64,000 nucleotides of DNA from Spirochaetia bacterium. Its GTDB lineage: Bacteria > Spirochaetota > UBA4802 > UBA5550. Under the pieces are notes generated by a model. The model made no database searches and was not told where the DNA came from. It saw only the letters and a list, made by a program, of their open reading frames with translations. How positions within the stretch are numbered: position 1 is the stretch's first letter; each line of letters opens with the position of its first letter. Made by a program: the position numbers and the translations under genes. Location: the NCBI GenBank assembly GCA_009885955.1, contig VFJS01000019.1, forward strand, positions 1 to 64,000, in the 5' to 3' direction. Below are positions 30,504-50,030 of this stretch, in pieces.

Positions 30504-31433
30504 ATGCTCAATGAAATCATTGAAAAACTCTACACCATTGAACATATTCCATCCCACCCGGCAATAAAGAAAAAAATCGATACTGCCCTGACCATGATAA
30601 ATTTAAAAACAATGGAAGGTATAGATGAACTGGCAGAACTCATATCATATGACCCTTCCCTGTCAATCGAGCTGCTTAAAATAGCAAATTCAAACTCCTA
30701 CGGATTCCGAAAAAAAATATCATCCATAAAACATGCGCTCCAGATACTCGATACAGATCTGATACATCTGATTATCAACCAGCACCCTTCTCTTCCCGGG
30801 CTGGCCATGTACGATGCCAGGGTCAACGAAGAATTCATAAAGCTGCTCAAACACTCCATTGAGGTTCATGAAATCATACGGATCATCGTAGAACGCCTTT
30901 TAGAAAAAAATATAATTGAAGAAACCATTGTTGGTGAAATGCTCTCAGCTGCAGTCATTCATGATATTGGTTTTTATTTTGTACTCGCCTATTTCCCCGA
31001 ATATTATTTTAACATTATACATAATATAAAAAATATCGAAAAACCTATGGTAAAACCCGATAGCAATAAGCTTCCCGATCATTCCATTATCGGGTCGATT
31101 CTCTGTGAATACTGGAATCTCCCGTCTTTCATAAAAACTTCCATCACCTTTCACCATATCCCATGGGCCGCGGATATTGAGGAACGCGGAAACACGATTG
31201 GAACCGATATTCTCTATGTTGGAGACTGCATATCAGATTCCTATTACACGCTTTATCACAACGAAAATGACATCTATACGATAAATGAAAATATTATCAT
31301 GAGACAGAATCTATTAAAAATAATGGAAAGTCTCGGGCTTGATATAACACTGATTCCCGATATTAAAAACAGGTCAGATAAAAGAATTGATGATATATAC
31401 AGGAAATTCGGATTCAGTTCTCCTGCCTCATAA
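30504..31433 (+). CDS. HDOD domain signalling protein (first)
   Basis: A 309-residue protein with an HDOD domain (about 15-215), a relative of HD-type phosphohydrolases that usually lacks enzymatic activity. IEHIPSHPAIKKKIDTAL opens the domain, ISYDPSLSIELLKIANSNSYGF is typical, and an HD-like AAVIHDIG is retained near 150. HDOD proteins act in signalling, often with kinases and cyclic dinucleotide systems. It follows the sensor gene closely and converges with pelG, overlapping its end by 20 bases. The other pelG (50031-51407) also meets an HDOD gene end to end. Confidence 0.82.
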   Translation: MLNEIIEKLYTIEHIPSHPAIKKKIDTALTMINLKTMEGIDELAELISYDPSLSIELLKIANSNSYGFRKKISSIKHALQILDTDLIHLIINQHPSLPGLAMYDARVNEEFIKLLKHSIEVHEIIRIIVERLLEKNIIEETIVGEMLSAAVIHDIGFYFVLAYFPEYYFNIIHNIKNIEKPMVKPDSNKLPDHSIIGSILCEYWNLPSFIKTSITFHHIPWAADIEERGNTIGTDILYVGDCISDSYYTLYHNENDIYTINENIIMRQNLLKIMESLGLDITLIPDIKNRSDKRIDDIYRKFGFSSPAS

Positions 31434-32778
31434 AAATTTTATACTCTATGTCAGTTACCGAATAGAGGAGAAGTCCCAGACCGGTAATAAATGAGATGAG
31501 TATTGATATGAGATAACCGGCGCCCATAGGAACTACAGGATAGAAAACAAAAAGAATGTTAAGCCCGGCATTGAGAAGAAAAAATAGAAATACAAGAAAA
31601 AAACTCAACTGGCTCAGGTCAAAATACATGAGAAAAATTATTATATAGAGAAACATTACCTGGCCTCCGGCAGCGAAAAAGAGGATTCTGAGAATCACTA
31701 TTGAATCCGGTGAAAGGCCGAACCATGCTGCAATGTAATCAGAAAACAGGAAGCCCAGGAGGGAACTGACAAATTGTATGTACAAGAGTTTCCGGATGCT
31801 TGCTTTAAGGAGCCTGAATAGAACAACCTTGTACGCAAGAATTTTGTCCAGGGGCTCCCTTGAGATTGAATCGAAAAAATTTTTATGGGCAAGAAAAAAA
31901 GTGGTTTCCGACTGAATCAGGAAATATGCCAGCGAAGGAATTATAATGAGGTAGGCAATGAATACAGGGGTGTCATAAAGGTTATAGGCCATGAAATTGC
32001 CGTAGATCTTTTCACCATGCACGAACCACCCTATCATCTTGTCCGACCACAATCCCAGGTTGTAGAAAAGCCCGGTAAAAAAAATATAGGGGAAGAGCCT
32101 GAAGTACTTCAAAAACTCCCGGTTAAAAAACCCGTTAAAAGGAAATTCCCTGATTATGAAAAAAAGGAGAGCCAGGAGGATAAAAAGCTGTCCTATCACG
32201 TAACCCCACAGGGCTCCATCAACGTCGTAAAAACTGCCAAGAACCGGGGAACATACCAGGGACATGATGCTCCCTATAAAAAATGAGGTAATGATACCGG
32301 TATAATTTTTTGAGCAGCTGAGAAAATCCATTAAGGTCCATATGGCGCAGATTATCACAAAGAGCGATATGCTGGCTGCTTTATACAGCAGGGAGCCTTC
32401 GTTCATAAAATAGTACCATGGAAGGGCCAGGGAGAGGGATATGATCAGGCTGATCATGAGCCCGGAGAAGAGCCCGGATAGCATTTTATCCTTCTGCTTC
32501 ATATACTCCTTGTCTGCCAGGTACCTTGTCAGGATAAACTGCACCGGCCCGGTAAATATGAGAGAAAAGGCAAAGGTATAGACGATAGTGATGCTGATAG
32601 TGGAAAACTTCTTTGCCGTTGTGAACCTGCCGCTGAGCAGGCCAATGAGCCCCAGGCAGATTATGGACAGTATCCATGGCCCTGAGGTGATGATGGAAGC
32701 AAATATGTAGGCCTTTGCTTTTTTTAAAAATGATTCATCTTCAATCAGCTTCTGCAGCTGAAACCCTATTCCTGCCAT
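31414..32778 (-). CDS. pelG: PelG-like polysaccharide transporter (first copy)
   Basis: A 454-residue membrane protein of the MOP (flippase) superfamily with about twelve membrane helices. PelG is the inner-membrane transport subunit for Pel polysaccharide and works with the synthase PelF. The start MAGIGFQLQKL matches PelG starts (MAGIGFEL in the second copy here) and is preceded by GGA at six bases, so 32778 is chosen over the open frame to 32850. It overlaps the pelF end by 38 bases. Segments such as FTGPVQFILTRYLADKEYM and SGPWILSI also occur in the second copy in similar form. Confidence 0.88.
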   Translation of the reverse strand: MAGIGFQLQKLIEDESFLKKAKAYIFASIITSGPWILSIICLGLIGLLSGRFTTAKKFSTISITIVYTFAFSLIFTGPVQFILTRYLADKEYMKQKDKMLSGLFSGLMISLIISLSLALPWYYFMNEGSLLYKAASISLFVIICAIWTLMDFLSCSKNYTGIITSFFIGSIMSLVCSPVLGSFYDVDGALWGYVIGQLFILLALLFFIIREFPFNGFFNREFLKYFRLFPYIFFTGLFYNLGLWSDKMIGWFVHGEKIYGNFMAYNLYDTPVFIAYLIIIPSLAYFLIQSETTFFLAHKNFFDSISREPLDKILAYKVVLFRLLKASIRKLLYIQFVSSLLGFLFSDYIAAWFGLSPDSIVILRILFFAAGGQVMFLYIIIFLMYFDLSQLSFFLVFLFFLLNAGLNILFVFYPVVPMGAGYLISILISFITGLGLLLYSVTDIEYKIFMRQEN

Positions 32779-34213
32779 TTTTTTCCATTTTTGCAATATT
32801 AGATTTGATGCTGAATTTGAAATATATCTGCCGGTAGCTCTCAATGACATCCTTCACATCATAACTGCGCTTTACCATTTCCCTCCCCTTTACCGTCAAT
32901 TCCTCACGGAGCTGCCTGCTCCTGCATAATTTTATGATTGCGTCAGCAGTCTCCTCAGGGACCCCTGGGGTTGTTATAAACCCCAGGTCTTCCAGCATCT
33001 CCCTGCAACACCCCACATCCGTTGATATACACGGCATGCCCACGCACATCCCCTCGAGGAGGACCAGGGGCTGGGCCTCCCTGACGCTCGTGAGAACCAG
33101 GATGTCTACCTTCGGATAGTAATCGGTCATCTTGACCCTGCCGGTAAATATAATCCGTTCCCCCATGCCCAGTTCCTTTACTAGATCAACGCACTCATCG
33201 TAGTAATCTTCATCTTCATCGGAGGGCCCGATGATATGAAACTCCGCATTGGGGATCTCCTTCGCAGCAATCGATGCGGCTTTTATGAACATCTTGACAT
33301 CCTTTATGGGGACCACCCGGACTACAGTACCCACGATGATCTTTTCACCATTATCAATCTTCTTCAGGGATGTATAGAGGGCAATATCAACGCCATTGGG
33401 AATTATTTCAGTTCGATCCACATTTGCATTATTTGAAACTTCGATAAAAAGATTTCCCCGGTAGAGAGTGATTATCTTGTCTGCAAAAAAATATGAAAGT
33501 CTGCATAAGCTGTGGTAAAAATTAATCCATACCTGCCTCTGGTCATCATCTATCATCTTGGTGATCTTCAGCTCATCTTCCCGCTCCATGGCGTATATTC
33601 CATGTTCGGTCAGGACAAAGGGGATGTTGTACCGTATTTTTGCCAGCGCGGCAAGGGCGCCGGCAAACCCCGTACTTACCGCATGGTACATGTCAGCCCT
33701 GGGGAGCGGATAATTCAATACCCTGAGAAGCGGAAGATGGGTTGATTTCCATGTCCAGAAGTATTTCATGAATCCCGATTTATTTCCTGTTTCCCGGTAT
33801 ATTTTGAAAACGGCATCTATGGCATCCTTTGATTTTGTCAGATCTTCAAGTGATACAGGGCATGAGTCTCCCAGGTTAAACATTTCAGTAATTATTTTGA
33901 AAAAACCATAATTCTTGAGCTTCATTGAGATATGGAAATTCACAATTTCCTTTATGAGCTCCATCCGTCTGCGCCTGGTTTTTTTCAGGGGTGCAGCCGG
34001 GAAATAGTCCCTGTCGAGCCAGACCTGGCGGACCTCAATTACATTTTCAGGCAGATCATATTTAAATTCCTTATCCCGGTATGATGCAGGCAGAATGACG
34101 AGCAGTGTAAAATTGACATCCTTAATTTCAGTGATCAGCTGATGGCACCATGACGATACCCCCCCGGTTATGTAAGGGTATGCCCCCTCAACTACCATGC
34201 ATACATGCGGCAT
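32741..34213 (-). CDS. pelF: PelF-like glycosyltransferase (first copy)
   Basis: A 490-residue GT-B glycosyltransferase (family GT4). PelF polymerises UDP-activated N-acetylhexosamine into Pel. The start VVEGAYPYITGGVSSWCHQL (7-26) and VLTEHGIYAMERE are diagnostic, VVRVVPIKDVKMF follows, and the E-x7-E catalytic pair lies in REAQPLVLLEG near 376-386. Signal peptide and membrane helices are absent, so it is cytosolic, at the PelG complex. It is the first gene of a two-gene unit with pelG and is divergent from glmS across a 193-base gap that may be a shared control region. It differs clearly from the second copy, so this is not a recent duplication. Confidence 0.92.
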   Translation of the reverse strand: MPHVCMVVEGAYPYITGGVSSWCHQLITEIKDVNFTLLVILPASYRDKEFKYDLPENVIEVRQVWLDRDYFPAAPLKKTRRRRMELIKEIVNFHISMKLKNYGFFKIITEMFNLGDSCPVSLEDLTKSKDAIDAVFKIYRETGNKSGFMKYFWTWKSTHLPLLRVLNYPLPRADMYHAVSTGFAGALAALAKIRYNIPFVLTEHGIYAMEREDELKITKMIDDDQRQVWINFYHSLCRLSYFFADKIITLYRGNLFIEVSNNANVDRTEIIPNGVDIALYTSLKKIDNGEKIIVGTVVRVVPIKDVKMFIKAASIAAKEIPNAEFHIIGPSDEDEDYYDECVDLVKELGMGERIIFTGRVKMTDYYPKVDILVLTSVREAQPLVLLEGMCVGMPCISTDVGCCREMLEDLGFITTPGVPEETADAIIKLCRSRQLREELTVKGREMVKRSYDVKDVIESYRQIYFKFSIKSNIAKMEKNGRNRVSAAEAD

Positions 34214-34406
34214 ATCTATTGTCCATTCTTAAGATTTATCTTATGACTTTCAAAAAAATCATGTGTGGCCATTTATGGCTTGACTAAATTAAAATCCATT
34301 ATCATCATTAATTATTACCATACTTATTAAATTTCTCTGTTAAATATACCATAACTGGTGAAAAGGTCAATTATAAAAAATATTAAATGTGGAGGAACAG
34401 GGTGAT

Positions 34407-36236
34407 ATGTGCGGAATAATAGGATATATAGGGAATAAAAATGCTTCTGAAGTCATCATTAAAGGGTTAAAGAGGCTCGAATACAGGGGATACGATTCTG
34501 CCGGAATAGCGCTGGTTGACGGATCCATATATGTAAATAAAAAATCGGGGAAAATATCGGAACTGACAGCCCTTCTTGATTTTGAAAGCCTGAAAAACTT
34601 CCATACCGGCATAGGCCACACGCGGTGGGCAACCCATGGAGCACCTTCAGACATTAATGCCCACCCCCACCTGGACTGCAAAGAGGAAATTGCAATTGTC
34701 CACAACGGGATAATAGAGAACTATTCTGTAATAAAAAAAATGCTGCTGACCAAAGGTCACAAAGTAATAAGTGAAACCGATACTGAAGTCATTGTTCACC
34801 TCATTGAATATTTTTACCAGACCAACCCGCTCCTGGAAGCTGTCATGATGGCCATAACCAAGCTGGAAGGCACCTTCGGACTCCTTGTCATATCAAAAAA
34901 GGAGCCGGGGAAGATCATTGCTGCGAGAAAAGGGAGCCCACTCATCATAGGCATCGGCGATGGAGAGATGATACTTGCCTCTGACGCCAGCGCCATCGTG
35001 GAATATACAAGGAAGGTTGTGTACGTTGAGGACAATGAAATTTTTGAAATATCCGGGGACTCATTCAAGACCTATACAATCGACCATGAAAAAATAAAGA
35101 AGGAAATATCGAACATTGACTGGGACATCAGCTCCATTGAAAAGCAGGGATTCAGCCATTTCATGCTGAAGGAGATCTTTGAACAGCCCGAGACCATAAA
35201 CAATGCCTTCAGGGGGAGGATGCTCTATGACAAGGGAAATATCCGGCTCGACGGGCTGAGGCTCACCGACGAGGAATTGAGCGGCATCAACCGGATCACC
35301 TTCATCGCATGCGGAACCTCGTGGCATGCCGGCCTCATAGGCCAGTATCTTATAGAAGAGTATGCCAGGATCCCGGTAAAGGTTGAATATGCTTCAGAGT
35401 TCAGGTACCGGAAGCCCATTCTGACAAAGGGAGACCTGGTTATCGTGATAAGCCAGTCGGGAGAGACTGCCGATACCCTGGCAGCCCTGCGTGAGGCCAA
35501 GTCAAAAGGAGTTAAGGTCCTGGGAATAACCAACATTGTCGGGAGCACCATTGCCAGGGAAAGCGACGGCGGTGTATATATTCATGCCGGCCCTGAAATT
35601 GGCGTAGCCTCGACCAAGGCCTTCACCTCGCAGATCACCGTACTCATACTGCTCACAATATTCCTTGCAAGGCGCAGAGACATGAATTCAGAGGAGGGGA
35701 AGGTATACCTGGAACACCTGAATGAAATTCCCGGCCACGTGACAGAAATATTAAAGCATAGCGACAGCATAAGGGAAATTGCAGAAATATACAAGGACAA
35801 GAGCAACTTCCTCTATTTAGGCCGGGGCATACACTTTCCCGTTGCCCTTGAAGGGGCCCTGAAGCTGAAGGAGATATCCTATATCCATGCCGAAGGATAC
35901 CCTGCCGCAGAAATGAAGCATGGCCCCATTGCCCTCCTCGATGAAAACATGCCCGTGGTGTTCATTGTTCCTAAAGACGAGATTTACAGCAAGGTTATGA
36001 GCAACATGGAGGAGGTGAGAGCGCGGAAGGCTAAAATCATTGCCATAGCGAACGAAGGCGATGAAGAAATAAAAAAATATGCCAACCATGTAATCTACAT
36101 CCCCGGCGTGAGGAAAATGCTTGCCCCGCTGCTCACGGTAATTCCGCTCCAGCTCCTCTCGTATCACATGGCTGTTTTACGGGGATGCGATGTTGATCAG
36201 CCGAGAAACCTGGCAAAAAGTGTTACGGTAGAATAA
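34407..36236 (+). CDS. glmS: Glutamine-fructose-6-phosphate transaminase
   Basis: A 609-residue enzyme that makes glucosamine 6-phosphate, the first step to UDP-GlcNAc. It has an N-terminal glutaminase domain whose catalytic Cys directly follows the initiator Met (MCGIIGYIG), then two SIS sugar-isomerase domains (about 280-420 and 455-595; ISQSGETADT) and the canonical end PRNLAKSVTVE. The frame opens at 34389, but the ATG at 34407 is the only one that leaves the nucleophile N-terminal. GGAGG and AGGG precede it. No glmS ribozyme is visible in the 193-base leader. Placement inside the Pel-like locus, with the glycosidase gene eight bases behind, suggests a dedicated or dual role in polymer precursor supply. 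Confidence 0.95.
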   Translation: MCGIIGYIGNKNASEVIIKGLKRLEYRGYDSAGIALVDGSIYVNKKSGKISELTALLDFESLKNFHTGIGHTRWATHGAPSDINAHPHLDCKEEIAIVHNGIIENYSVIKKMLLTKGHKVISETDTEVIVHLIEYFYQTNPLLEAVMMAITKLEGTFGLLVISKKEPGKIIAARKGSPLIIGIGDGEMILASDASAIVEYTRKVVYVEDNEIFEISGDSFKTYTIDHEKIKKEISNIDWDISSIEKQGFSHFMLKEIFEQPETINNAFRGRMLYDKGNIRLDGLRLTDEELSGINRITFIACGTSWHAGLIGQYLIEEYARIPVKVEYASEFRYRKPILTKGDLVIVISQSGETADTLAALREAKSKGVKVLGITNIVGSTIARESDGGVYIHAGPEIGVASTKAFTSQITVLILLTIFLARRRDMNSEEGKVYLEHLNEIPGHVTEILKHSDSIREIAEIYKDKSNFLYLGRGIHFPVALEGALKLKEISYIHAEGYPAAEMKHGPIALLDENMPVVFIVPKDEIYSKVMSNMEEVRARKAKIIAIANEGDEEIKKYANHVIYIPGVRKMLAPLLTVIPLQLLSYHMAVLRGCDVDQPRNLAKSVTVE

Positions 36237-36244
36237 GCCGGTTA

Positions 36245-37291
36245 ATGAAAAAGCGGAGATCCTTTTTATGGCGGCCGGCTGCGGTGGTGTTCATAATTCT
36301 CACAACAGCAATCACTTGGCTCCCGGCCTTAGATAAAAACATTCCTGTTGAAAAAAAATTGAATTTCAGGGATGAGATGAGAAAATTCGTTATCGAGCTC
36401 AGCCGGGCAGGTAAAAAAATGAAACCCGGTTTCCTGATAATACCTCAGAATGCCGTTGACATCATTACGGTGAACGGCGAAAGAGACGGGCCGGCAGCCG
36501 GTGACTACATTGCATCTATCGACGGACTGGGCCTGGAAGAGCTTTTTTTCGGCACTCCGGCAGATGGGGCTGTATCACCAAAGACGACGGCAGACTTTCT
36601 CATCCCCTTTCTTAAAATTTTAAAAAACAGGAACCGGCAGATCCTCATCATAGACTACGTGAAGACTTCTGCACAGGCCGAATCATCCTATCAGAAATCA
36701 GAAAAATACGGTTTCCTTTCTTTCCAGGCGGAAAGATCCCTCTCCATGATACCCGGCTGGATAAAAAACCCCAACAGGGGAAATATTGCAAGCCTGAAAG
36801 ACGCAAAAAATTTTTTATTCATGATCAATGGCTCTAAATTTATAAATATACACTGGTATATGGATCAATTAAAAAAAAGCGACTGGGACATTCTTATCAT
36901 TGACCTTTTCTTCCATGGGACGCGCCTCACAAATGAGCAGGTAAACTCGCTTAAAATAAAAAAATCCGGCGGCAAAAGGCTGGTTATTTCATATCTCTCA
37001 ATCGGTGAGGCAGAGGACTACAGGTATTACTGGAAACCGGCATGGAAAAAGTCCCCTCCCCCTTTCCTCGAAAAAGAGAATCCCGAATGGAAGGGAAATT
37101 ACAAGGTGAAATACTGGATGGATGAGTGGAAGGAAATTATTACCGGCAAGGCCGATGGTACGGGTTTCTCAGGCAGTTATGTAAAACAGATTTTAGACGC
37201 AGGATTTGACGGCGTCTACCTTGACATCATTGACGCCGCCTTTTACTTTGAGAAAAAAAATTTGAAAGATGAGAATAAAACAGGCCGATGA
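36245..37291 (+). CDS. Secreted GH114-type glycosidase with permuted domain order
   Basis: A 348-residue protein with a signal peptide or anchor (about 9-29) and a COG2342/GH114-type (TM1410-like) domain. Known family marks are all present but in swapped order. First come FLIIPQNAVDII (63-74) and IDGLGLEELFF (92-102), which normally end the domain. Then come WDILIIDLFFHG (214-225), YLSIGEAEDYRYYW (250-263), GNYKVKYW (284-291) and FDGVYLDIIDAA (321-332), which normally begin it. This suggests a circular permutation of the TIM barrel. GH114 enzymes cut alpha-1,4-linked galactosamine polymers, and Pel is rich in partly deacetylated GalNAc, so the protein is a good candidate for the PelA hydrolase role. 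It follows glmS by eight bases. I read the permutation by eye; a profile search would settle it. Confidence 0.75.
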   Translation: MKKRRSFLWRPAAVVFIILTTAITWLPALDKNIPVEKKLNFRDEMRKFVIELSRAGKKMKPGFLIIPQNAVDIITVNGERDGPAAGDYIASIDGLGLEELFFGTPADGAVSPKTTADFLIPFLKILKNRNRQILIIDYVKTSAQAESSYQKSEKYGFLSFQAERSLSMIPGWIKNPNRGNIASLKDAKNFLFMINGSKFINIHWYMDQLKKSDWDILIIDLFFHGTRLTNEQVNSLKIKKSGGKRLVISYLSIGEAEDYRYYWKPAWKKSPPPFLEKENPEWKGNYKVKYWMDEWKEIITGKADGTGFSGSYVKQILDAGFDGVYLDIIDAAFYFEKKNLKDENKTGR

Positions 37292-37325: not shown

Positions 37326-39929
37326 TTATCGTACGGATATCTCGCATCTTGATTCATTGGTCTTGTATACATAGTCCCCGGTTCTCGTGTTTCCGAAAAC
37401 CTGTGTGCAATTCTCAGACTTGACTATGGTGCTCCCGTTCTTTATGGTGATCCTGAAAAAAATATACCTGTCTGACCCGTCGGAGGACTCGACTATTATC
37501 CTGCCCGGCTCATTCCGTACCCTGATACTTGTATTGTTATAAAATTGAAACTCATCATAGGCATCCTTAACCGTCATCCATCGCAACCATGGGAAATTTC
37601 TGTTCACCATCGTGAAGTCGGCGGCAAACTGGTTCTTCATCCAGTCCCATCCGGTAAAGCCCCTGGACCTGCTTTCATCAAATACATCATCGGGGTGGAT
37701 GAAATGGCTTATTATGCCGGAATTATGGATACCGTCGTATAATACATATTTTTCCTGGTCGTTCATAACATAACCGAAGGTGAGGCGGGGGACCTGGAAA
37801 AACCTGAGGTCTTTTGTGAATTCAAATTCCTGCTCATTCTCTCCCTGGCTGCTCATATACACCGCGGATACGACATGGATTGAAGGGAAGACCTCTCCAA
37901 GTGCTGAAAGACCGTCACTGTCTATGATGTTATGCGGCGCTACATAAGAAAAGGGCAATGTCGCCGGGGTAAAAATCTTTTCCCACTCATTCCTGGCCAC
38001 GGTTAATCCCTTTACCATGGCATCCCTGTTCCTCCATGGTTCCGAGGCATAGTCCCTGGGCCTGGTCAGAGTCATGGACTGGTGGTTATATCCGTGCAGC
38101 CCCATATCCCACCCGCTGTTCAGCGCAAAATATCCCATTTTGATCGGGAGCGCCCCTTCGGCAAGGTAGAAATCCCTGACAGAAAATTCATCATCGCTTT
38201 TCTTATAGCCGGTCTCCTTGCTGTAATTGAAGATAACGTAACTTGAATATTTGAACCCGAGATTTTTCTGGAACGATGTTATGTCCTTCAGCCAGACGTT
38301 CCGTATAAAATCGGTGTCCGTGATATCGGGATATTTTCTCAAACGCTCCACTATTTCGCCGAGCTTTTTCTTCTTTTCCGAATCGGATTCATTTTCAAAC
38401 ATTTCGTTATAACTTTTAATCCGGTATTCCCTGTAGTTTGTATTCCAGAGGGGCGCGGGGAAATCATCGATCATCATCATGGCTATATTGGCCATTCCTG
38501 AAACAAAATAATCTGTGATATAATGGATACTCTGTACTATGGTGCCCCTGAACCTCTTGCTTTCAGGGATAATATTCATATTCCAGTAAAGAAGCTTTCC
38601 CTTCCCGATGCTTCTTTCCCATAAAGCGGGATAATTCTCCTTTTTTTCACTGTCATTAACCGTTGCAAGCGCCCTGCCGTCAGAAAGCCTGGCCTCCCTG
38701 ACATTTGTGTCCAGCTTGCTGCCGCTCACCTGGGCGCCATTCATGAAAAAGGAAGGGTTTATGCTGAAACCTTCCTTGAAATATTTCGGGCTCCTGCCGT
38801 AATAGCTCAGCCCCATGAGGCTCAAATAGTCCTTTGGTATATCGGCATATTGAATGAATACGGCCCTGCCTCCAAGTTCCAGGTATCTTTGCAGAAGCCG
38901 TACAGGAATTTTTTCCAGGGTGTTTAATGCTATGACAATTGCGCGGTAAACCAGAAGGTCCTCGGCAACCATGGTCTTTAACTGCTTGATGTCAATATAG
39001 GCATTACTGATTTTGGCATAGCGGAATGTATATTCAAGATTCTTTTCCACGGCCTCCCTTTTGGGGATGTCTCCGAGAATAATTCCCACGTCCTGGACAC
39101 CGCTTCCATAAAAGAGTGATTTGCGGAGAAAAAGAGAGGGATTGAGCATCATCCTGTTCCCCATGGTGACATACTGTTCAAGGGCAAACCCGCCATTCTT
39201 CGACGTCATGATAACTGAAGATTCCCCGTCCCCCAGGCCCTTTAGGCTGTCGGTACGTTTTACCGTGAGATAGGTGGTTACATCGCTTCTTATGGGAACA
39301 AGAAGCTGGTAGTGCCGCGATGCCCCCACATCCTGCTTCCCGTCCTTCTCAGCCATTTCCCTGTCAATCTGGGAAATCCTGAGTATGCCCGGGTCATTGG
39401 TCCAATAGCCCCTGAAGGAGAAACCCATTTTAATAAACAGCGGTTTTATTTCATCGATGAGGTCCCATTTATCAACCCCGTCATCCTTATAACCGTACGC
39501 GCCAAAGGAGTTGATGATGATAAGCTTAACTCCCCTGTCAACAGCCCCGTTCAGGTATCTGATATACTTGATTCCCTTGTCCCTGTTTGGAACTGTGCTG
39601 CTGTTATACCATGTTATGATGGCCCTTGTATTTTCCAGGTTATCCGTATCAGGGAGGCCCCTGTCGATATCATGGTAATCTACTGCCAATCCGGATTTGA
39701 GGAGTTCCTGCTCAAAATACATTTTTACAGGATTATTCGCGTCCCCGTAACCGTCGGAGCCCTTATAAAACGCCATGATGCGGCTGCCGTAGGCATCGGC
39801 AAAGCCTTCACGAAGGCCCAATCCTGAAAGCAGAACAACCGTGGCAAAAAGAACAGGTTTAATATACCCCGCAATCCGGGTAAAAAATTGAAGTGTTCTT
39901 TTAATACATCTCAATTTCATATCTTCCAT
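37326..39929 (-). CDS. DUF2194 polysaccharide-deacetylase-like exported protein
   Basis: An 867-residue protein with an N-terminal signal/anchor (about 20-45). The first half (about 45-470) holds Rossmann-like domains. The second half resembles a NodB/CE4 deacetylase: MIDDFP near 485-490 (motif-1 Asp pair), HGYNH near 611-615 (HxxxH zinc site), APHN near 683 and SHFIHPDD near 759. DUF2194 proteins are seen with PelF in other genomes as the likely equivalent of the PelA deacetylase half. It probably trims acetyl groups from the growing polymer in the periplasm. The start may instead be the ATG at 39920. Its first codons overlap the end of the outer-membrane protein gene, so the two are coupled. 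Confidence 0.72.
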   Translation of the reverse strand: MEDMKLRCIKRTLQFFTRIAGYIKPVLFATVVLLSGLGLREGFADAYGSRIMAFYKGSDGYGDANNPVKMYFEQELLKSGLAVDYHDIDRGLPDTDNLENTRAIITWYNSSTVPNRDKGIKYIRYLNGAVDRGVKLIIINSFGAYGYKDDGVDKWDLIDEIKPLFIKMGFSFRGYWTNDPGILRISQIDREMAEKDGKQDVGASRHYQLLVPIRSDVTTYLTVKRTDSLKGLGDGESSVIMTSKNGGFALEQYVTMGNRMMLNPSLFLRKSLFYGSGVQDVGIILGDIPKREAVEKNLEYTFRYAKISNAYIDIKQLKTMVAEDLLVYRAIVIALNTLEKIPVRLLQRYLELGGRAVFIQYADIPKDYLSLMGLSYYGRSPKYFKEGFSINPSFFMNGAQVSGSKLDTNVREARLSDGRALATVNDSEKKENYPALWERSIGKGKLLYWNMNIIPESKRFRGTIVQSIHYITDYFVSGMANIAMMMIDDFPAPLWNTNYREYRIKSYNEMFENESDSEKKKKLGEIVERLRKYPDITDTDFIRNVWLKDITSFQKNLGFKYSSYVIFNYSKETGYKKSDDEFSVRDFYLAEGALPIKMGYFALNSGWDMGLHGYNHQSMTLTRPRDYASEPWRNRDAMVKGLTVARNEWEKIFTPATLPFSYVAPHNIIDSDGLSALGEVFPSIHVVSAVYMSSQGENEQEFEFTKDLRFFQVPRLTFGYVMNDQEKYVLYDGIHNSGIISHFIHPDDVFDESRSRGFTGWDWMKNQFAADFTMVNRNFPWLRWMTVKDAYDEFQFYNNTSIRVRNEPGRIIVESSDGSDRYIFFRITIKNGSTIVKSENCTQVFGNTRTGDYVYKTNESRCEISVR

Positions 39930-42900
39930 CCCACTTGTTGTTTTTTTGTTTCATGTAGGGGAATTCCTTCCCGACGCCTTTAAACGTCACCTCTATGGCC
40001 TTGAATTTATCCTTGATAATCTTTGCCAGGATTTTTGCCCTTTCCTTTGAAAGCTCAAGGTTTGAGCTTTCCGAGCCTTCCTGTGTTGTATGGGAAATAA
40101 CCCTGATATTTTTAACATTTGCCCTTTTCCCAATCTGCTGCAGCAGCCTTTCAATTACCGGGTCTGCCGCCTTGCTCACTTCACTCATCCTCCGTTCATG
40201 GATGATATCCTGATCGAATATGATGAATGCATCCTTCCCGTCTATCTTCTTCATGAGAAAATCGAGCCAGAATGTGAGCCTGTTGGATTTGGACTTATTG
40301 CCCGCCTTGTCGGTGACCTCAAGCTCAGTTGTCACCGGCATGTTGTAGCCGGCCGGCAGCCCCTCCTCGTCGGTGCCGTCCCATGCTATTGCCTCGGGAA
40401 GCTTCTCACTTCCGTGAATTACCTTGATGAGCCTGCCGTCAATAGAAAAGAGGGAAAGGTTCCATACCTCAACTTCCCTGTTGGAAATTTCGGGAACAAT
40501 GGTGAGCATACCCTGCTTCGGCAGGAATTCCCGCACTTCTGTCTTTATATTCAAGGAAAACCGCGTAATTATTTTAACCTCGGTTAAAGGCGATGTAATG
40601 ATGTTCCTGTCCCGGTACTGCACCTTGAGCATCAGGTTATACGTACCGTCGGGAAGGACATTCCCGTCGGAACCCCTTCCATCCCATTTCATGTCAAAGG
40701 GGAGGAACTCATATCCCTTTATGGACTTTAATGCATACCCTGCCTGGTTCATGATACTGAATTCCCAGTTGTCGATGTTGGTTTTATCAGTAATGTTGAA
40801 TTCAATATTTATCGTATCCTTTATCCCGTCATTGTTCGGCGAAAAATCTGGGTATGATTTCTCAAGGGTAACAGCCCTGCCTATCCTTGAAAGGAAGAGT
40901 CTGTCCTTTTTCGATGAAGTCTGTTTCCCTCCGGAATTGACAATCGTCAACTGGTAAAAATAGGTACCCTTGGGGAGTAGGTTGTTTGCCTTATCCGAAC
41001 CATCCCATTTCTGCGTTGACGGGGGGATACCGGCCCTCCCGAAATTGTTTACCTTCACTCCCTGTTCATTAAATATGTCAAGCCTCCAGCTGGAAATACC
41101 CCTGTCGTCAAAGGCGTTGAGTGTAAATGTAGTAAAATCATCCTTCCCGTCCCCGTCTGCGGTAATGAGGGTGGGGCTTGCGCTCACGTGGACAAAGGGT
41201 TCATCTCCGCGCCCCTTGGGTGTGTACATGGTGAAAAACTTCCACTTTGCTCCGAAGTTTACATTATGTGATATAAAAGGATCGGGATCCGGATTGGCAA
41301 CTGTGGGATTGATTTTTGAATGCGAGTAATTATAAGAAAGATGCAAGCCAAGATGGTCATTATCAAATTTTATTCCTGCGCCTGGCCCCATATTCCTGTT
41401 CTGCATATTATCAAGTGTATAATTAAATGATAACGTGTAAAAGAGCCTGCCGCTGGCAACATTTGACACCGTGTGCGACCATCGCGCAGCACCGCCGTAG
41501 GATCTGAGATTATCCGGGGCCCAGTACGGCAGTGAAGTCATGACACTGGGGTCTGAAACGGTATACCTGTTAAACCTGCTCGCTTCATAGGTGTATATTC
41601 CTGAAAGATCAAAATACATTTCCCATTCGGGGAATCTGAGGAGCCTGAATGTGAGTTCATTATAATTTGACGTCCTTTTATTTGTGTCTGAAATCATACG
41701 GTACTTGACATTTGTATAGATAAATATCCTGCTGCTCAAAGGGAAATCAAGCTCCTGGAAAGAACCGTCAAGTGTGCCGCTTATGGTGTTTGATGTTATT
41801 TCATCCCTTTTTACCAGCCGTAATGACTGAGACAGATCAGCCAGATCCTCATGGTAGTAACCGAGGGTGAGCGATAGTATTTTAAAAACAGGACCCACCC
41901 GGACAATTCCTGAATAATTTACTGTATAATAATTCAGTTTTGAATCGTATGTATCGTAATGTTCAAAATCAACGATGCCGTTATAATAATGTCCATACCC
42001 TTCAAGTGAAATTGAAGTGCGCAGGGGTGGTATTATGAACCCTGCCTTTGCATACCCTGTATGTCTTATCACATCACCCGTTTTTATCCCCGGATAGGTC
42101 TGTCCTGTTTGGGATACCCCTCCCTTCTCATCAATTTTTAAATATTTATACCCGCCGCTTAATGTGAGCCAGTCATATAAAGGATAATCCCACATAAGAC
42201 CTGTGCTTAATCTTTTTACGGCCTTTTCCGAGTAGTAGTCGTTTTCATTTCTTAGAGCCGGCGAATATTCCTTCTGAATGTCAAAATGCCTGCTTCGCGC
42301 AAGATTGTTCTCAAGCTGATTATTGATGCAGACTTCATAGTTGGCCAGGGCCGATTTCCAGAAACCCGATGTCTCGTTCAGTGTGCCGAGTTTAAAATTT
42401 ATGTCGACATTGAGGGGCTGTACCTGAAGGATGTTGTGATAATAATCCAGGGCATACAGGATCTGATTATTATTCAGATAATACTGGCCGATTTCCCTGT
42501 ACGTGGGGACATTCTCATTTTCAAGTTCAAGGAACCCCTTCTCATACAGGCTCCGGATGGTCACCTTCATAGACTTGTTCTTTTCTGTCAATTCCTGGAA
42601 AAGCCCATTCATCCGTTTTGCGCTGTCAGCGGATTTTGCGGCAATTTCCCTGGCCATCTTAAGCCTGTCTGCCGGAGCAACCTCCTGTGAGTACCCCTTG
42701 CTGAAGGCATTGAGGCTCTGTTCAATCTCTTTCAGTTTATTGATGACGCCCGTATTCCCTGTGTTCCCCCTGATTGCCGTGTTTATGAGATCCCGGGCCT
42801 CATTCTGGTTTCCCGTGGCAGACAGTGCAATTATCAGTGATGGGATTGCCTTCTTCGGTTCCTTTTTGCTGACGAACCTGAGCGATGTAACAGCCTCGCT

Positions 42901-44901
42901 CCCGTTGCCGTATAATATATCAATCAGGGAAATTACCTTTTTCGGCCTGTAGTCTCCGGGATAGCTCTTCTCGGAATTTCTGGCCTGCTGTAATATCCTC
43001 GATCTGTCAAATTCCCACTTTAAAACTTTTTTCTGCGACATGAAACTCTGAACATCTTTTGTATAATAATTAAGGACATCGCCGAGTATAGAGAGATTTT
43101 TTTCAAAAATATCAAGCTTCTTAATCAGTTCAAGAAGCTTTTTGTAATCAGATGACACCTTGTCCTGGGACAGCCTGTCAGGAAGGGGCCTGTTTTTGCT
43201 TATCATCTCCCCGGTGTCCCTGTATTCACGATCGATCTCCGTTAAAGATGCGAGGAGGCTGTTTATTCCAGGCTGCATTAAATTAAATTTTATGAACTCT
43301 GCCTCAATGGAATTAAGCCTCTCTTCAACATTGTCAATTTTTTTCAGTATCCTCACATTGAGCAGTGTGCTGTACTCGGTTATGGCCTTTGCCTCCATCC
43401 TGTTCCAGCGGTACGCATCAATAAGATTTTTCCTCGCTTCCAGATCCTCGGGATCCTTTGCCACGGCCTTGACATATTCATCAATGGTAGCTTTCAGTTC
43501 CTTGTCCTGTTCGCCTTTCACATCGAGAGAAATATTTGAGAGTTCGGGATATATCTTGATTATCCTTGCAGCATCATCGAGTATTTCCGATGATGTTTTA
43601 TTCTGCCCCTGGTCCATGTATATTTTAGCAAGCTTCTTGTACGCCGTTATCTCCTTCTCATTTATGGATATGATCTTTTTAAACTGCCGTATGGCATTGT
43701 GAGTATTTCCGGACCAGTTATAATTGTCCCCGAGGGCGTAGAGGACTTCAATGTTGTCCGGAGCTATCGCCTCGGCCTGCGCAAATACGCCGATGGCCTT
43801 GTTTACCTCGCCGCTCCAGGTAAGCTGGGTTGCCAGGGAAATATAGGCATCAACGTTCATCGGATCTATCTCAATGATCTCCTTGTAGTTTCTGATGGCC
43901 TCGTCGTATCTGTTATTCCATCCGGCAAGCACGGCAAGGAGTTTTCTCGCGGTAATGTTCTTATTGTCAATGGCAAGGATATTTTTATACTCTTTGATGG
44001 AATCATCAAGCCTGTCCCCCCAGGCAAGGTTGCTGGCAAGGAGCAGGCGTATCTCCAGGTCCTTTGGATTGTCCTTGATATATGCCTCGGCAAGATCTAT
44101 CGACTTGTTGTATTCATAGAGCCATGCATAGATCTGCAACAGGGTAAAAACATTTTCCCTGTAGTTGTTTCTGGTCTTAATCTGGTCCTTGTAGTAATCT
44201 ATGGTATTCAGCCTCACCCCTGCGCCCTTGTCGGAATAATCCCTCGGGCTTATTTCTGGAAAACTCATGAGGGGGATAAGATATTCCGAATAGGTGGGGA
44301 GGAACAGAATCGCATCAATATAATAAAAATAGTCCCATCCGCTGGACCTCTTCTGCTTGACCCTGAATGTGAGATGGTGCTGCCCGGCGCTCAGGGTTCC
44401 GGTTGATATCTTTACCCAGTAATACCCTCCCGGTGCATAATACTCCTTGACAAAGGTATTCTCAGATGATGCCAGGGTGAACTGGCCTTCATCGATCTTC
44501 CATTCAATGGGAGAAGCATAACCGGGTTTATCGGGATACATGGATCCGGGAGGTGTGCACGCCATCCAGAAGTCATAGCTCTTTGTTTTGGGCACATGAA
44601 ATACATAGGTGGCATAATACCCCTTGTCCGGGGAGGGGTCAGCATCCTTTGAAAGCTGGAGAGAGTATTTATTGCTGCAGTAGAAGTTATAGGTCTTTTC
44701 CTTGGCGAAGTTAGTTGCAAGGGCATTTTCACCCTCAATCCAGATATAGTTCTTATAGTATGTCTTGTTCCTGGGAGTAACAGGGACTTCGACTTTAGAT
44801 GTTTTGGCATCGCCGTCTTTGCCGATGCTATGGCCCGGGATTATAATACCTGTTATGATAGTTGAAAATATAATTATGAAACTTTTTATTATTTTTGGCA
44901 T
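39901..44901 (-). CDS. Giant PelB-like outer-membrane protein (CBM, TPR, barrel, FlgD-Ig, OmpA)
   Basis: A 1666-residue exported protein (signal peptide about 1-25). Modules in order: a CBM6/35-like carbohydrate-binding fold (about 50-205, WIEGENA to DAILFLP), TPR repeats (about 225-450), a helical region with further TPRs (to about 880), a beta-barrel-like region of alternating aromatic strands (about 890-1210), three FlgD/Ig-like modules (about 1240-1540, with SPNNDGIKD and WDG-GTY motifs) and an OmpA peptidoglycan-binding domain (about 1555-1666, LSKERAK present; the usual Asp of TD is Thr). PelB of Pseudomonas has TPRs plus a barrel, so export of the polymer is the likely role; the added modules would hold sugar and bind the cell wall. 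GGTGG five bases upstream supports the start. Confidence 0.78.
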   Translation of the reverse strand: MPKIIKSFIIIFSTIITGIIIPGHSIGKDGDAKTSKVEVPVTPRNKTYYKNYIWIEGENALATNFAKEKTYNFYCSNKYSLQLSKDADPSPDKGYYATYVFHVPKTKSYDFWMACTPPGSMYPDKPGYASPIEWKIDEGQFTLASSENTFVKEYYAPGGYYWVKISTGTLSAGQHHLTFRVKQKRSSGWDYFYYIDAILFLPTYSEYLIPLMSFPEISPRDYSDKGAGVRLNTIDYYKDQIKTRNNYRENVFTLLQIYAWLYEYNKSIDLAEAYIKDNPKDLEIRLLLASNLAWGDRLDDSIKEYKNILAIDNKNITARKLLAVLAGWNNRYDEAIRNYKEIIEIDPMNVDAYISLATQLTWSGEVNKAIGVFAQAEAIAPDNIEVLYALGDNYNWSGNTHNAIRQFKKIISINEKEITAYKKLAKIYMDQGQNKTSSEILDDAARIIKIYPELSNISLDVKGEQDKELKATIDEYVKAVAKDPEDLEARKNLIDAYRWNRMEAKAITEYSTLLNVRILKKIDNVEERLNSIEAEFIKFNLMQPGINSLLASLTEIDREYRDTGEMISKNRPLPDRLSQDKVSSDYKKLLELIKKLDIFEKNLSILGDVLNYYTKDVQSFMSQKKVLKWEFDRSRILQQARNSEKSYPGDYRPKKVISLIDILYGNGSEAVTSLRFVSKKEPKKAIPSLIIALSATGNQNEARDLINTAIRGNTGNTGVINKLKEIEQSLNAFSKGYSQEVAPADRLKMAREIAAKSADSAKRMNGLFQELTEKNKSMKVTIRSLYEKGFLELENENVPTYREIGQYYLNNNQILYALDYYHNILQVQPLNVDINFKLGTLNETSGFWKSALANYEVCINNQLENNLARSRHFDIQKEYSPALRNENDYYSEKAVKRLSTGLMWDYPLYDWLTLSGGYKYLKIDEKGGVSQTGQTYPGIKTGDVIRHTGYAKAGFIIPPLRTSISLEGYGHYYNGIVDFEHYDTYDSKLNYYTVNYSGIVRVGPVFKILSLTLGYYHEDLADLSQSLRLVKRDEITSNTISGTLDGSFQELDFPLSSRIFIYTNVKYRMISDTNKRTSNYNELTFRLLRFPEWEMYFDLSGIYTYEASRFNRYTVSDPSVMTSLPYWAPDNLRSYGGAARWSHTVSNVASGRLFYTLSFNYTLDNMQNRNMGPGAGIKFDNDHLGLHLSYNYSHSKINPTVANPDPDPFISHNVNFGAKWKFFTMYTPKGRGDEPFVHVSASPTLITADGDGKDDFTTFTLNAFDDRGISSWRLDIFNEQGVKVNNFGRAGIPPSTQKWDGSDKANNLLPKGTYFYQLTIVNSGGKQTSSKKDRLFLSRIGRAVTLEKSYPDFSPNNDGIKDTINIEFNITDKTNIDNWEFSIMNQAGYALKSIKGYEFLPFDMKWDGRGSDGNVLPDGTYNLMLKVQYRDRNIITSPLTEVKIITRFSLNIKTEVREFLPKQGMLTIVPEISNREVEVWNLSLFSIDGRLIKVIHGSEKLPEAIAWDGTDEEGLPAGYNMPVTTELEVTDKAGNKSKSNRLTFWLDFLMKKIDGKDAFIIFDQDIIHERRMSEVSKAADPVIERLLQQIGKRANVKNIRVISHTTQEGSESSNLELSKERAKILAKIIKDKFKAIEVTFKGVGKEFPYMKQKNNKWDGRYEIEMY

Positions 44902-44941: not shown

Positions 44942-46063
44942 TTATTGAGCAAATCGTTTTATCATTTTATTAAAAATTCCTACAGCTTCCAGTCCTTCAA
45001 CGGGATTTTCCGGCTGCATTGAACCGCCCAGGGACAGCCCGATTATATTTTCTTTTACTGAAATCCTGATAGCGTTATAAAATATATCAGCGGAGTCCAC
45101 ATCCACAATCGGCGATTTTATATTCTTCGGGTAGCTTGATCGGTAATCCATATTTCCGGTGGAGATTACAAGGAAATCTTCAACAATTTTTGCCATCTCC
45201 CTCCGGGTAATACTCTTAAAAGGTTCAAACTTATCGCTTTCAATATACGAGAATAGGCCCTTGCTCCGGAGCAGCTCAATGGACTTGCTGTACATTGAGC
45301 CGGAAATATCGGCAAACTCCTTTAAAGGCTTAGAGAACCTGAGATATCTGTCGAGCCTGAAAACCGTCTGCAGAAGATCGGCAATCTCCCCTCTCGACAC
45401 GGCCTTGGAGAACAGGATGTTCTGAAACTGTTTCGGATCAATCTTCAGTTTTTCAATTTCATCAAGGGTTTCAAGCCGTTCAGCCGCAAGGACTTGTAAA
45501 TCGCCGCCGATGAACAGGACTTTCCTGTAATGGATCCTTGATTTGTTAAAATCCATGAGATAGTAATAGCTGTCGCCAAGCGACAAATGGGCTTCAGCCA
45601 TATCAGGATCATTTTTTATTATATAATTGAGGATATCAACGGCATCCTTTGCATAATCCTTTCCTTTTTCCTTTATGAGGATCCTGGTTTCAAGAACCTT
45701 TATAAGAGTATTGTTTGTCTTATAGGATTTCGCATTTTCAAGGTTTTTCTTTGACTGCAGATTATCGCCTCTCACATAGAAATAAAGGGCAAAACCGTAG
45801 GATATTTCAATTTCAGGAGAAAAATCTTTTTTGTTTTTTTCATCCTTTTTTATGAGAAGTTCCGCCTGTTTGATAAAACCTAAAGCTTCATCCAGGAGTC
45901 CGTTCCTCTGTTTTAAGTCTTCAATGGTTTCAGCCTTGTACATATTCTTTTTTGCCCTGTTAACCAGGTTTTTTATATTGCTGTCAGATCCGGGGATTAT
46001 CTGTCCGCAGGCAATAATCATAAAACTCAGGAGTGATATTAAAATTTTAAGATTTACCTTCAT
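44942..46063 (-). CDS. TPR-SLH lipoprotein
   Basis: A 373-residue lipoprotein: signal peptide 1-18 with lipobox ending at Cys19 (FMIIAC), TPR-like repeats (about 45-200, NDPDMAEAHLSLGDSYYYL is typical) and SLH-like segments (about 215-370: SRGEIADLL, FADISGSMYSKSIELL, ITRREMAKIVEDFL, VDVDSADIFYNAI). It should be lipid-anchored in the periplasm. First gene of the minus-strand unit with the giant outer-membrane protein and the deacetylase. No PelC gene is seen, so this lipoprotein may take the PelC-like role at the outer membrane; that is inference. AAGG about eight bases before the ATG supports the start. Confidence 0.75.
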   Translation of the reverse strand: MKVNLKILISLLSFMIIACGQIIPGSDSNIKNLVNRAKKNMYKAETIEDLKQRNGLLDEALGFIKQAELLIKKDEKNKKDFSPEIEISYGFALYFYVRGDNLQSKKNLENAKSYKTNNTLIKVLETRILIKEKGKDYAKDAVDILNYIIKNDPDMAEAHLSLGDSYYYLMDFNKSRIHYRKVLFIGGDLQVLAAERLETLDEIEKLKIDPKQFQNILFSKAVSRGEIADLLQTVFRLDRYLRFSKPLKEFADISGSMYSKSIELLRSKGLFSYIESDKFEPFKSITRREMAKIVEDFLVISTGNMDYRSSYPKNIKSPIVDVDSADIFYNAIRISVKENIIGLSLGGSMQPENPVEGLEAVGIFNKMIKRFAQ

Positions 46064-46258: not shown

Positions 46259-47734
46259 ATGAAAATTACAGAAAAAATCTTATCTGCAGTCAAAAAAATA
46301 CACCCCGGTGAAATTTTATTTTCAGTTTCCATCATTTCCGTAATAAATTATTTTTATTATCCCGAAGACCCCCTGTTTCTCCAGTTTAAAATCAATCCAT
46401 TCATCATACTTATCCTTTTCTTTTCCGTATTTTACGGAAAAGTTCCGGGAATCATGACACTCATTCTTTCAATGACAGGAACCATCCTGGCGCTGAATTT
46501 TATTATTATGTTTGATGATACCGCTGGATTTCCTGATACCCTCGGCAGGATATACTCCATCTACTCCACCGGTGAGAATTATAAATCCCTAGTGCAGTTC
46601 TTTTTTGCATCGTTTATACTCTCGATAATTTTTGGCGAGATACGGGACACCCTGAGCACAAATATCCAGAAAATGAGGGACCAGAAAATCCAGCTTCTGA
46701 AGAAAATCACCAAAATTGAGCAGGAATTAAATTCAATTGCCCTGGTGAACGAGGAGTACCAGGACAGGATCCTCGGGCAGCAGAACTCACTTATTTCACT
46801 TTACTCCACTATGCTTACCCTCAATACACTGGACCTCCAGAGCATCTACCCCAACATACTGGAGGCCATAGTAAAATTCTCCAATGCCGGGAAATGTTCA
46901 CTCTGGAAGTATAAGCGTGATGAAAGCAAACTCGAACTCCTCTCAAGCCATGGGTGGGAGGAACAGGAAAAGCAGGAACATAAAATTATGTCCGATTCAG
47001 ACTCCATTACCGGCTGGGTTGCCCGTAACAATACGCTCTTTTCCGTAAAGATGCTGAAAAAAAACCAGTATCTCCAAAAACTCGACACCAAGAACAATAT
47101 CATAACCGTCCCGATCATTATTGAGAAAAGCGTCTGGGGAATAATAAATATCGAGGCAATGCCTTTTGTAAAATACAACCTTTACTCTGAGCAGCTCATC
47201 ATCATGATCTCGGACCTGGTGGCCCCGATAATAGGCAATGCAATCAGGTTCGGAGAAATATCGATGATGGGAGACATAGATCCCATTACCAAGCTCAGAA
47301 CCATCAATGAAATGTTCATGATACTGAAAGACGAATTTTCCAGGTCCATGACCAACAACATTCACCTGTCTCTGGCAATAGTCGAAATTTCAAATTCCAG
47401 GGAAATCCTCGGTAATTTTACAGAGAAAGAGAGCCTCACGCTGGTGCGGGAAATATCGGGCCTTGCGAACCAGGTTGCAATGGGGAAAGGGCTCATATTT
47501 CAGTACAAGGAGACCTTCCAGTTTTCCGTTATCCTCCCCAACATGGACCATGACGGCGCTGCCATATTCTGCCTCTCAATTATAGAACAGCACAGCAAAG
47601 CTGTATATAAAATCAATGAAACAATCGTATACCCGGAAATAGTCATCGGGTACAGCAGCCTCAGGCAGAATCATAAATCGGAATTTGACCTCATCCTTCT
47701 GGCCGAAAACCTGATGGAGATGCAAAAAATATAA
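46259..47734 (+). CDS. PelD-like TM-GAF-degenerate GGDEF protein
   Basis: A 491-residue inner-membrane protein with four predicted helices (about 17-128), a coiled coil (135-175), a GAF domain (about 180-325) and a GGDEF-like domain (about 330-490) that has lost its active motif: ETFQF stands where GGDEF would be. This order is that of PelD, the c-di-GMP receptor of the Pel machinery. At the place of the inhibitory RxxD site I read MGKG, so c-di-GMP binding in the PelD manner is doubtful. It is the first gene of a unit with pelE-like, pelF and pelG genes and overlaps the next by taATG. No Shine-Dalgarno site is visible. It is divergent from the lipoprotein gene over 195 bases. Confidence 0.8.
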   Translation: MKITEKILSAVKKIHPGEILFSVSIISVINYFYYPEDPLFLQFKINPFIILILFFSVFYGKVPGIMTLILSMTGTILALNFIIMFDDTAGFPDTLGRIYSIYSTGENYKSLVQFFFASFILSIIFGEIRDTLSTNIQKMRDQKIQLLKKITKIEQELNSIALVNEEYQDRILGQQNSLISLYSTMLTLNTLDLQSIYPNILEAIVKFSNAGKCSLWKYKRDESKLELLSSHGWEEQEKQEHKIMSDSDSITGWVARNNTLFSVKMLKKNQYLQKLDTKNNIITVPIIIEKSVWGIINIEAMPFVKYNLYSEQLIIMISDLVAPIIGNAIRFGEISMMGDIDPITKLRTINEMFMILKDEFSRSMTNNIHLSLAIVEISNSREILGNFTEKESLTLVREISGLANQVAMGKGLIFQYKETFQFSVILPNMDHDGAAIFCLSIIEQHSKAVYKINETIVYPEIVIGYSSLRQNHKSEFDLILLAENLMEMQKI

Positions 47735-48591
47735 TGTATGCGAACATCAAATCAAAAATCTTCAATTCCTTTGACCGGATCGAACTCGCTCCCATAGAAG
47801 AAGAACAATCAAAATCAGTGAATGACCTCTATTTTTTCAAGGACCCCTTCGACTTCTACAGGGTAGCGGACAAGGCGGATATCTACATTCCGAAAACACA
47901 AAAGGGGCTCAGGATGGCCTTTATCAGCGGGACCATCGGCATTGAATTCTTTCTCCAGATGGCAACATCACTCAGGCCCCTAGCCGATGAAGCCCAGGAC
48001 ATAGACGAAATAACCAGGCTCTTCTCACAACAGAAACTGTCACAGAGCCCCACCCCCCACTCGGTAAAAATCCTGATCAATATGATCCAGGACCCGAATC
48101 CTGAAATTGCACTCTATGCTGCCGAGGGGCTCAGTGTCATTGAAAACAGCTTTATTCAAAAAATCCAGCGCCTCAAGGAGAGAATTTCCAGCGGCAAAGG
48201 AAGCATCTTCATAAATCATTATTCCCTCGGAATTCTTTACCTGAGGTTTTCCAGGCTTCTGGACTGGCAGCCTCTTATTAAAAAATTCTACCTGAAGGAA
48301 GCCCTGGCAAACCTTGAGAAAGCTTTTCATGAAGAAAAAAACCATTATAAAACAATGATGGCTGTGGGTGAAATCTTTATCTTGATCAACCGGCACTCCA
48401 CTGCTCTGGAAGTCTTTAAAAATATTCTGTCAGTACGGCCCGATGATTACAGCTGCCTGATGCGTATTGCGGAAAGTTATTATTTTCTCGGCCTCTACGA
48501 TAAAATTGAAGAGACTTTCAACACCATGATCAGGGTACATCCTGACCTCGATAAAAATGATGAGATCATCGTATATCAATGGCTGATATAA
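47734..48591 (+). CDS. PelE-like TPR protein, apparently soluble
   Basis: A 285-residue protein. The N-terminal third (about 15-115) is not recognised. A HEAT-like segment NPEIALYAAEGL lies near 127-138 and TPR repeats near 190-275 (ALANLEKAF, ALEVFKNILSVRPDD, YYFLGLYDKIEETF). PelE of Pseudomonas has a TPR domain plus two membrane helices and binds PelD. No strong helix is seen here, so it would sit in the cytoplasm next to PelD and PelF. It starts in the pelD-like stop codon (taATG) and overlaps pelF by 13 bases, so the three should be made together. The PelE label rests mainly on position and repeats. Confidence 0.62.
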   Translation: MYANIKSKIFNSFDRIELAPIEEEQSKSVNDLYFFKDPFDFYRVADKADIYIPKTQKGLRMAFISGTIGIEFFLQMATSLRPLADEAQDIDEITRLFSQQKLSQSPTPHSVKILINMIQDPNPEIALYAAEGLSVIENSFIQKIQRLKERISSGKGSIFINHYSLGILYLRFSRLLDWQPLIKKFYLKEALANLEKAFHEEKNHYKTMMAVGEIFILINRHSTALEVFKNILSVRPDDYSCLMRIAESYYFLGLYDKIEETFNTMIRVHPDLDKNDEIIVYQWLI

Positions 48592-50012: not shown

Positions 50013-50030
50013 TTTTTTCCGCGGTATTAT

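Follow-up and report, generated by a model that had tools for sequence, protein, structure and literature searches.

The window analysed here is a stretch of 64,000 nucleotides (positions 1 to 64,000, forward strand, of contig VFJS01000019.1, assembly GCA_009885955.1) from a Spirochaetia bacterium, and the gene under study occupies positions 36245..37291 of its + strand. This open reading frame (ORF) is complete, specifies 348 amino acids beginning with a plausible signal peptide (as read from the sequence), and holds the only match to PF03537 (GH114-type) in the whole genome. Five motifs could be located in the protein: IIPQN (residues 65-69), IDGLGLEELFF (92-102), SIGEAEDYRYYW (252-263), GNYKVKYW (284-291) and FDGVYLDIID (321-330). 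On re-reading, the ORF, its coordinates, its completeness, these motif positions and the N-terminal signal peptide were all as given in the original prediction, which assigned the protein to the GH114/COG2342/TM1410 group and held it to be circularly permuted, with termini just past the YLDIID strand. The TM1410 type was upheld, while GH114 had to be refined to its sister family, GH191. The likeness to GH191/TM1410 extends over the whole domain, both halves being matched and, judged by its sequence, the protein is a GH191 (TM1410)-type glycosidase with its half-barrels swapped. The canonical second half (alpha4-beta8; residues 41-172, 36365..36760, +), which bears the acid/base E98, comes first. 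It is followed by a linker between what in canonical chains are the C- and N-termini (residues 173-180, 36761..36784, +; the gap between the profile matches described below), and then by the canonical first half (beta1-beta4; residues 181-338, 36785..37258, +), with W282 in the beta3 insertion and D327 near the C-terminus. The canonical linear order, beta1 to beta8, which every structurally solved relative follows, is not that of this protein.

A search of the PDB aligned TM1410 (2aam and 9euz) with the protein in two stretches whose order is swapped (E 1.5e-27); in the 9euz alignment, residues 209-339 corresponded to chain positions 23-142, and residues 44-146 to 152-244. Env-GH191 (9ep5) was also matched as two swapped stretches (E 1.7e-14). 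The family models Pfam PF03537 and NCBIfam TIGR01370 each gave two-stretch matches, with the best stretch on the C-terminal part of the ORF; the TIGR01370 score, 160.7, was below the cut-off of 181.25. When 21 permuted proteins were compared with a profile of canonical-order relatives (profile-profile comparison with hhalign), query residues 181-338 aligned with template positions 19-162 and query residues 41-172 with positions 163-284, the two halves meeting at 162/163 without gap or overlap. A single unbroken alignment (query 41-338, E 7.5e-75) was obtained when the canonical profile was doubled in tandem, and its score (551) was near the sum of those of the separate halves (359 + 203). Because the halves abut and the doubled profile gives a single alignment at close to the summed score, the protein is taken to be a circular permutation; these profile comparisons exclude chance as the source of the two swapped matches. 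The family order against which the swap is read is as the original prediction gave it: TM1410, Env-GH191, Ega3, Sph3 and PelA-h all have the half with the Asp first and that with the Glu second (PMC12054363).

TmGH191 (TM1410) has Asp156/Glu225 as its catalytic pair and Trp121 at the loop tip of a three-stranded beta3 insertion (PMC12054363). With its residues counted along chain 9euz (construct start, residue 27), sequence alignment placed D327 opposite Asp156, E98 opposite Glu225 and W282 opposite Trp121. In the window protein, both halves are complete, their order is swapped and the catalytic pair is conserved. The catalytic Asp is retained in 48, and the Glu in 50, of the 52 distinct permuted proteins gathered from all loci, while W282 is invariant among the 21 aligned. 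All the exceptions are proteobacterial (L068-L072, from G755, G641, G751, G557 and G685); in these the region of the Asp or of the Glu has degenerated (VLMAGID, VVLGGLD, VMLEGLE; IDG in L071), and three of them have a Tat-like SRRRF/SRRHF leader. These proteobacterial homologues may be pseudoenzymes.

The original prediction spoke of this one gene. The permutation proved real, but it is not private to the gene, being shared across at least three phyla and ancient. Of the 393 genomes sampled from the window's phylum, 43 carried the permuted form (whole in 42, broken in G370) and six the canonical form; the permuted form was also found in Cetobacterium somerae and Fusobacterium vincentii and, mostly decayed, in five of 398 sampled proteobacteria. 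One of the carriers within the phylum, L002 ('Spirochaetes bacterium Zod_Metabat.878'), is the same record as G033, a genome of the window's order. Over all loci, the 52 permuted proteins separated cleanly from 15 canonical-order ones, with no mixed forms; the distance from the catalytic Asp to the end of the chain has a median of 11.5 residues in the former and is at least 83 in the latter. The search for orthologues that the original prediction had called for thus returned many with swapped order, stopping at an equivalent place, and together with the profiles they bear out termini just past the YLDIID strand. A broken or rearranged pseudogene, or an assembly error, might mimic a permutation, and one relative, G370, does hold two broken copies; this explanation is nevertheless hardly credible, since the window's frame is complete and its catalytic residues are conserved, dozens of independent genomes, among them several assembled as one contig, show the same order and stop position, and the permuted order is also present in complete records under the names Cetobacterium and Fusobacterium. 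It is refuted by the orthologues. The two partial copies in G370, itself a single contig, lie ∼465 kb apart (L120 8717-9528 and L121 8268-8693) and share 233 bp at 96.6% identity; by this likeness they are the product of a recent duplication followed by decay. No match to the permuted gene was found in the phages searched. An IMG/VR viral contig (L059 2992-3756) carries a canonical-order TM1410-type glycosidase gene adjoining a helicase-like gene.

To model the fold, AlphaFold2 was given six rows, made up of the window protein and L002 together with the canonical proteins L003 and L059, each cut into its two halves and these put in swapped positions. The model of the window protein (predicted local distance difference test, pLDDT, 74.9; predicted template modelling score, pTM, 0.77) has strands at residues 64-68, 94-98, 132-139, 158-163, 189-193, 216-220, 246-252 and 323-327, eight in number as expected for a barrel, and makes an eight-stranded (beta/alpha)8 barrel plausible. 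Searched with Foldseek, the model matched TM1410 structures best (2aam among them), with ∼158 columns aligned; this amounts to one half, because Foldseek aligns in chain order, and is as expected for a permutant.

Trees were built on aligned model columns, independently of chain order (FastTree; treekit quick), the rows for TM1410 and Env-GH191 being assembled from aligned segments with filler residues between them. The permuted proteins grouped together (support 0.998 in FastTree, 99 in treekit quick), apart from the canonical Cereibacter protein L138, which fell inside the permuted clade and, in FastTree, also the very long-branched L081. Constraining the permuted proteins to one clade gave a log-likelihood 6.67 higher than that of the free tree (approximately unbiased test, p-AU 0.635); since the constrained tree has the better likelihood, a single origin is not rejected, and the sequences fit one ancient permutation for the whole set. 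The canonical order is most likely the ancestral state, since TM1410, Env-GH191, Ega3, Sph3 and PelA-h all place the Asp before the Glu. The Fusobacterium-type copies L132 and L133 (in G108 and G345, which belong to the window's phylum but lack PelG) nest within Fusobacterium sequences, which suggests that they were acquired by horizontal transfer. As to how the swap arose, the original prediction proposed tandem duplication followed by loss of the outer halves. The anatomy fits, but no intermediate and no DNA-level relic were found, the repeats around the window gene being short and chance-like only, with no trace of a duplication; this route is plausible but unproven. The Cereibacter azotoformans plasmid gene L138 (1342-2799) encodes a canonical-order GH191 protein with RTX-like repeats and lies near pelG; its beta4-alpha4 loop, IIDAFEFWEETAPRSGIDYRQEM, reads as though the C- and N-termini of permuted proteins had been joined.

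The same arrangement could have arisen as a chimera, the C-half of one GH191 paralogue having been fused to the N-half of another. Trees of single halves are weakly resolved, that of the C-half needs three changes, and Deinococcus does have glycosidase genes side by side, of which one is of TM1410 type. Yet a starred branch sets the permuted rows apart from all others in the N-half tree, in the C-half tree the starred branches force no more than one change, and the nearest rows for both halves of the window gene are permuted proteins, so that a chimera appears improbable beside a true permutation. In the Deinococcus aquaticus plasmid (L137 437-2247), the tandem genes, one annotated as a polygalactosaminidase and the other TM1410-type, overlap by ∼19 nucleotides.

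The window contains a pel locus, a gene cluster for the biofilm polysaccharide Pel. Eight nucleotides upstream of the permuted gene, on the same strand, lies glmS (34389..36236, +). Downstream, in convergent orientation, is a gene for a DUF2194, PelA-deacetylase-like protein (37326..39929, -; PF09960, E 4.2e-79), followed by genes for a TPR/outer-membrane/OmpA protein that is PelB-like by position (39901..44901, -), an SLH-domain protein (44942..46063, -; PF00395), a GAF/GGDEF membrane protein that is PelD-like (46259..47734, +; PF01590, PF00990), a putative PelE-like TPR protein (47734..48591, +; weak PF14559 match, and position), the glycosyltransferase PelF (48579..50012, +; NF038011, E 1.6e-106) and the transporter PelG (50031..51407, +; PF16933, E 4e-92). 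A second PelF (32741..34213, -; NF038011, E 1e-106) and a second PelG (31414..32850, -; PF16933, E 6.9e-113) are encoded on the other side, and the two PelF/PelG pairs (31414-34213 and 48579-51407) have opposite orientations; two PelG genes are also present in G006, G024 and G033. The permuted gene is thus adjacent to pelF, pelG, PelD-like and PelA-type deacetylase genes, although hydrolase and deacetylase do not share one chain, as they do in PelA, but are encoded by separate genes. In G006 the glmS/permuted-gene pair is likewise adjacent and also has a deacetylase gene as neighbour, and in Cetobacterium the permuted gene heads a run pelD-DUF2194-pelE-pelF-pelG. PelG was found in all nine genomes of the window's subclade and in one of the 34 other genomes of the phylum with a permuted gene (Fisher p 1.5e-12, for genomes that are relatives and not independent).

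Env-GH191 cleaves Pel, with a preference for deacetylated stretches (PMC12054363). In B. cereus a separate hydrolase, PelA-H, adjoins the pel operon, and its loss raises biofilm (PMC7112168). An 'endo alpha-1,4 polygalactosaminidase' of F. nucleatum was down-regulated together with DUF2194, pelF and pelG in coculture with P. gingivalis (PMC9848294); by analogy with the F. vincentii locus, we infer that this is the permuted gene. With a probability of about 80%, the window gene would encode a secreted, truly circularly permuted GH191 endo-alpha-1,4-galactosaminidase that cleaves Pel and replaces the hydrolase domain of PelA. Along the chain, alpha4-beta5-beta6-beta7-beta8 comes first, and a short linker leads from it to beta1-beta2-beta3-beta4; the new ends fall in the beta4-alpha4 loop, ∼20 residues beyond the catalytic Asp. 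The usual barrel would form, and the nucleophile D327, at the end of beta4, would face the acid/base E98, at the end of beta6. Partly deacetylated alpha-1,4-galactosaminan (Pel) would be cut in the periplasm or outside the cell, the permuted enzyme standing in for the hydrolase domain carried by Pseudomonas PelA. By analogy with these systems, Pel hydrolysis in this locus most likely falls to the window protein; we infer its substrate and cellular role, and its activity from the family.

Several observations weigh against this reading. Pel-cleaving galactosaminidase activity is known for Env-GH191 only, which is not a permuted member, and TmGH191 is inactive on fungal GAG, so that family alone is no guarantee of substrate (PMC12054363). 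With only two permuted sequences, AlphaFold2 gave a poor model (pLDDT 45), and the six-row model relied on half-domains of canonical relatives pre-aligned to the permuted positions. Finally, 33 of the 43 permuted-gene genomes of the phylum lack PelG, and Pel processing is therefore not the role of the whole permuted clade. The enzyme might instead act on polymers made by other microbes, as a source of nutrients or in invading biofilms; the genomes without PelG would fit this, as would the Fusobacterium-type copies in G108 and G345 and the second copy in F. vincentii, far from its single pelG. For the window gene such a role is rather unlikely, given that every sampled genome of its subclade has PelG and that three copies lie inside pel loci, but the many permuted members without PelG more probably act against foreign polymers. 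No convincing conserved neighbours outside pel were found for the other permuted genes. The odds are somewhat against a broader scheme, in which one ancient GH191 half-barrel swap founded a cross-phylum clade whose open beta4-alpha4 termini, close to the nucleophile, alter the acceptor side and hence the choice of substrate or product; part of the clade would serve Pel export, part would have spread horizontally against the Pel of neighbours, and a proteobacterial branch would have become non-catalytic.

Permuted and canonical versions with the same active site offer a natural experiment on half-barrel modularity, and permuted GH191 is a candidate anti-biofilm enzyme family. Models that depend on chain order underscore the permuted form (TIGR01370) or see mainly one half of it (Pfam), and because of this a pel-locus hydrolase in spirochaetes and fusobacteria can readily escape notice or be taken for an ordinary one; this probably holds for the two putative polygalactosaminidases of F. 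nucleatum as well. No report of a GH114/GH191 permutation was found in the open-access literature, and the GH191 and Pel papers make no mention of one. To our knowledge, it is uncommon for a catalytic TIM barrel to have undergone a natural permutation that swaps its halves, leaves the catalytic residues in place and occurs in more than one phylum. GH70, compared with GH13, is a precedent for a circularly permuted glycosidase. MalS is reported to be another (PMC10223318). Both belong to families unrelated to the window protein, which is a near-exact half-barrel swap.

TM1410 (TmGH191; 2aam, 9euz) and Env-GH191 (9ep5) share with the window protein the half-domains, the catalytic Asp and Glu, the Trp of the beta3 insertion and secretion; they run from beta1 to beta8, whereas the window protein has beta5-beta8 before beta1-beta4 and its termini in the beta4-alpha4 loop, and the TmGH191 loop residue Asp64 is not retained in it (H224). 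The GH114 endo-alpha-1,4-polygalactosaminidases Ega3 and FsGH114 have the predicted fold family and PF03537 in common with it, but their order is canonical and their similarity lower. Its closest canonical-order relative in the tree, the Cereibacter protein L138 (WP_238823723.1), is also encoded near pelG but has RTX-like repeats and no swap. The PelA hydrolase domain of P. aeruginosa and PelA-H of B. cereus are, like the window gene product, pel-locus hydrolases with an Asp/Glu pair and a barrel probably related to its own, and PelA-H is likewise encoded by a separate gene (PMC7112168); both differ from the window protein in GH family (GH166 for PelA-h) and keep the canonical order.
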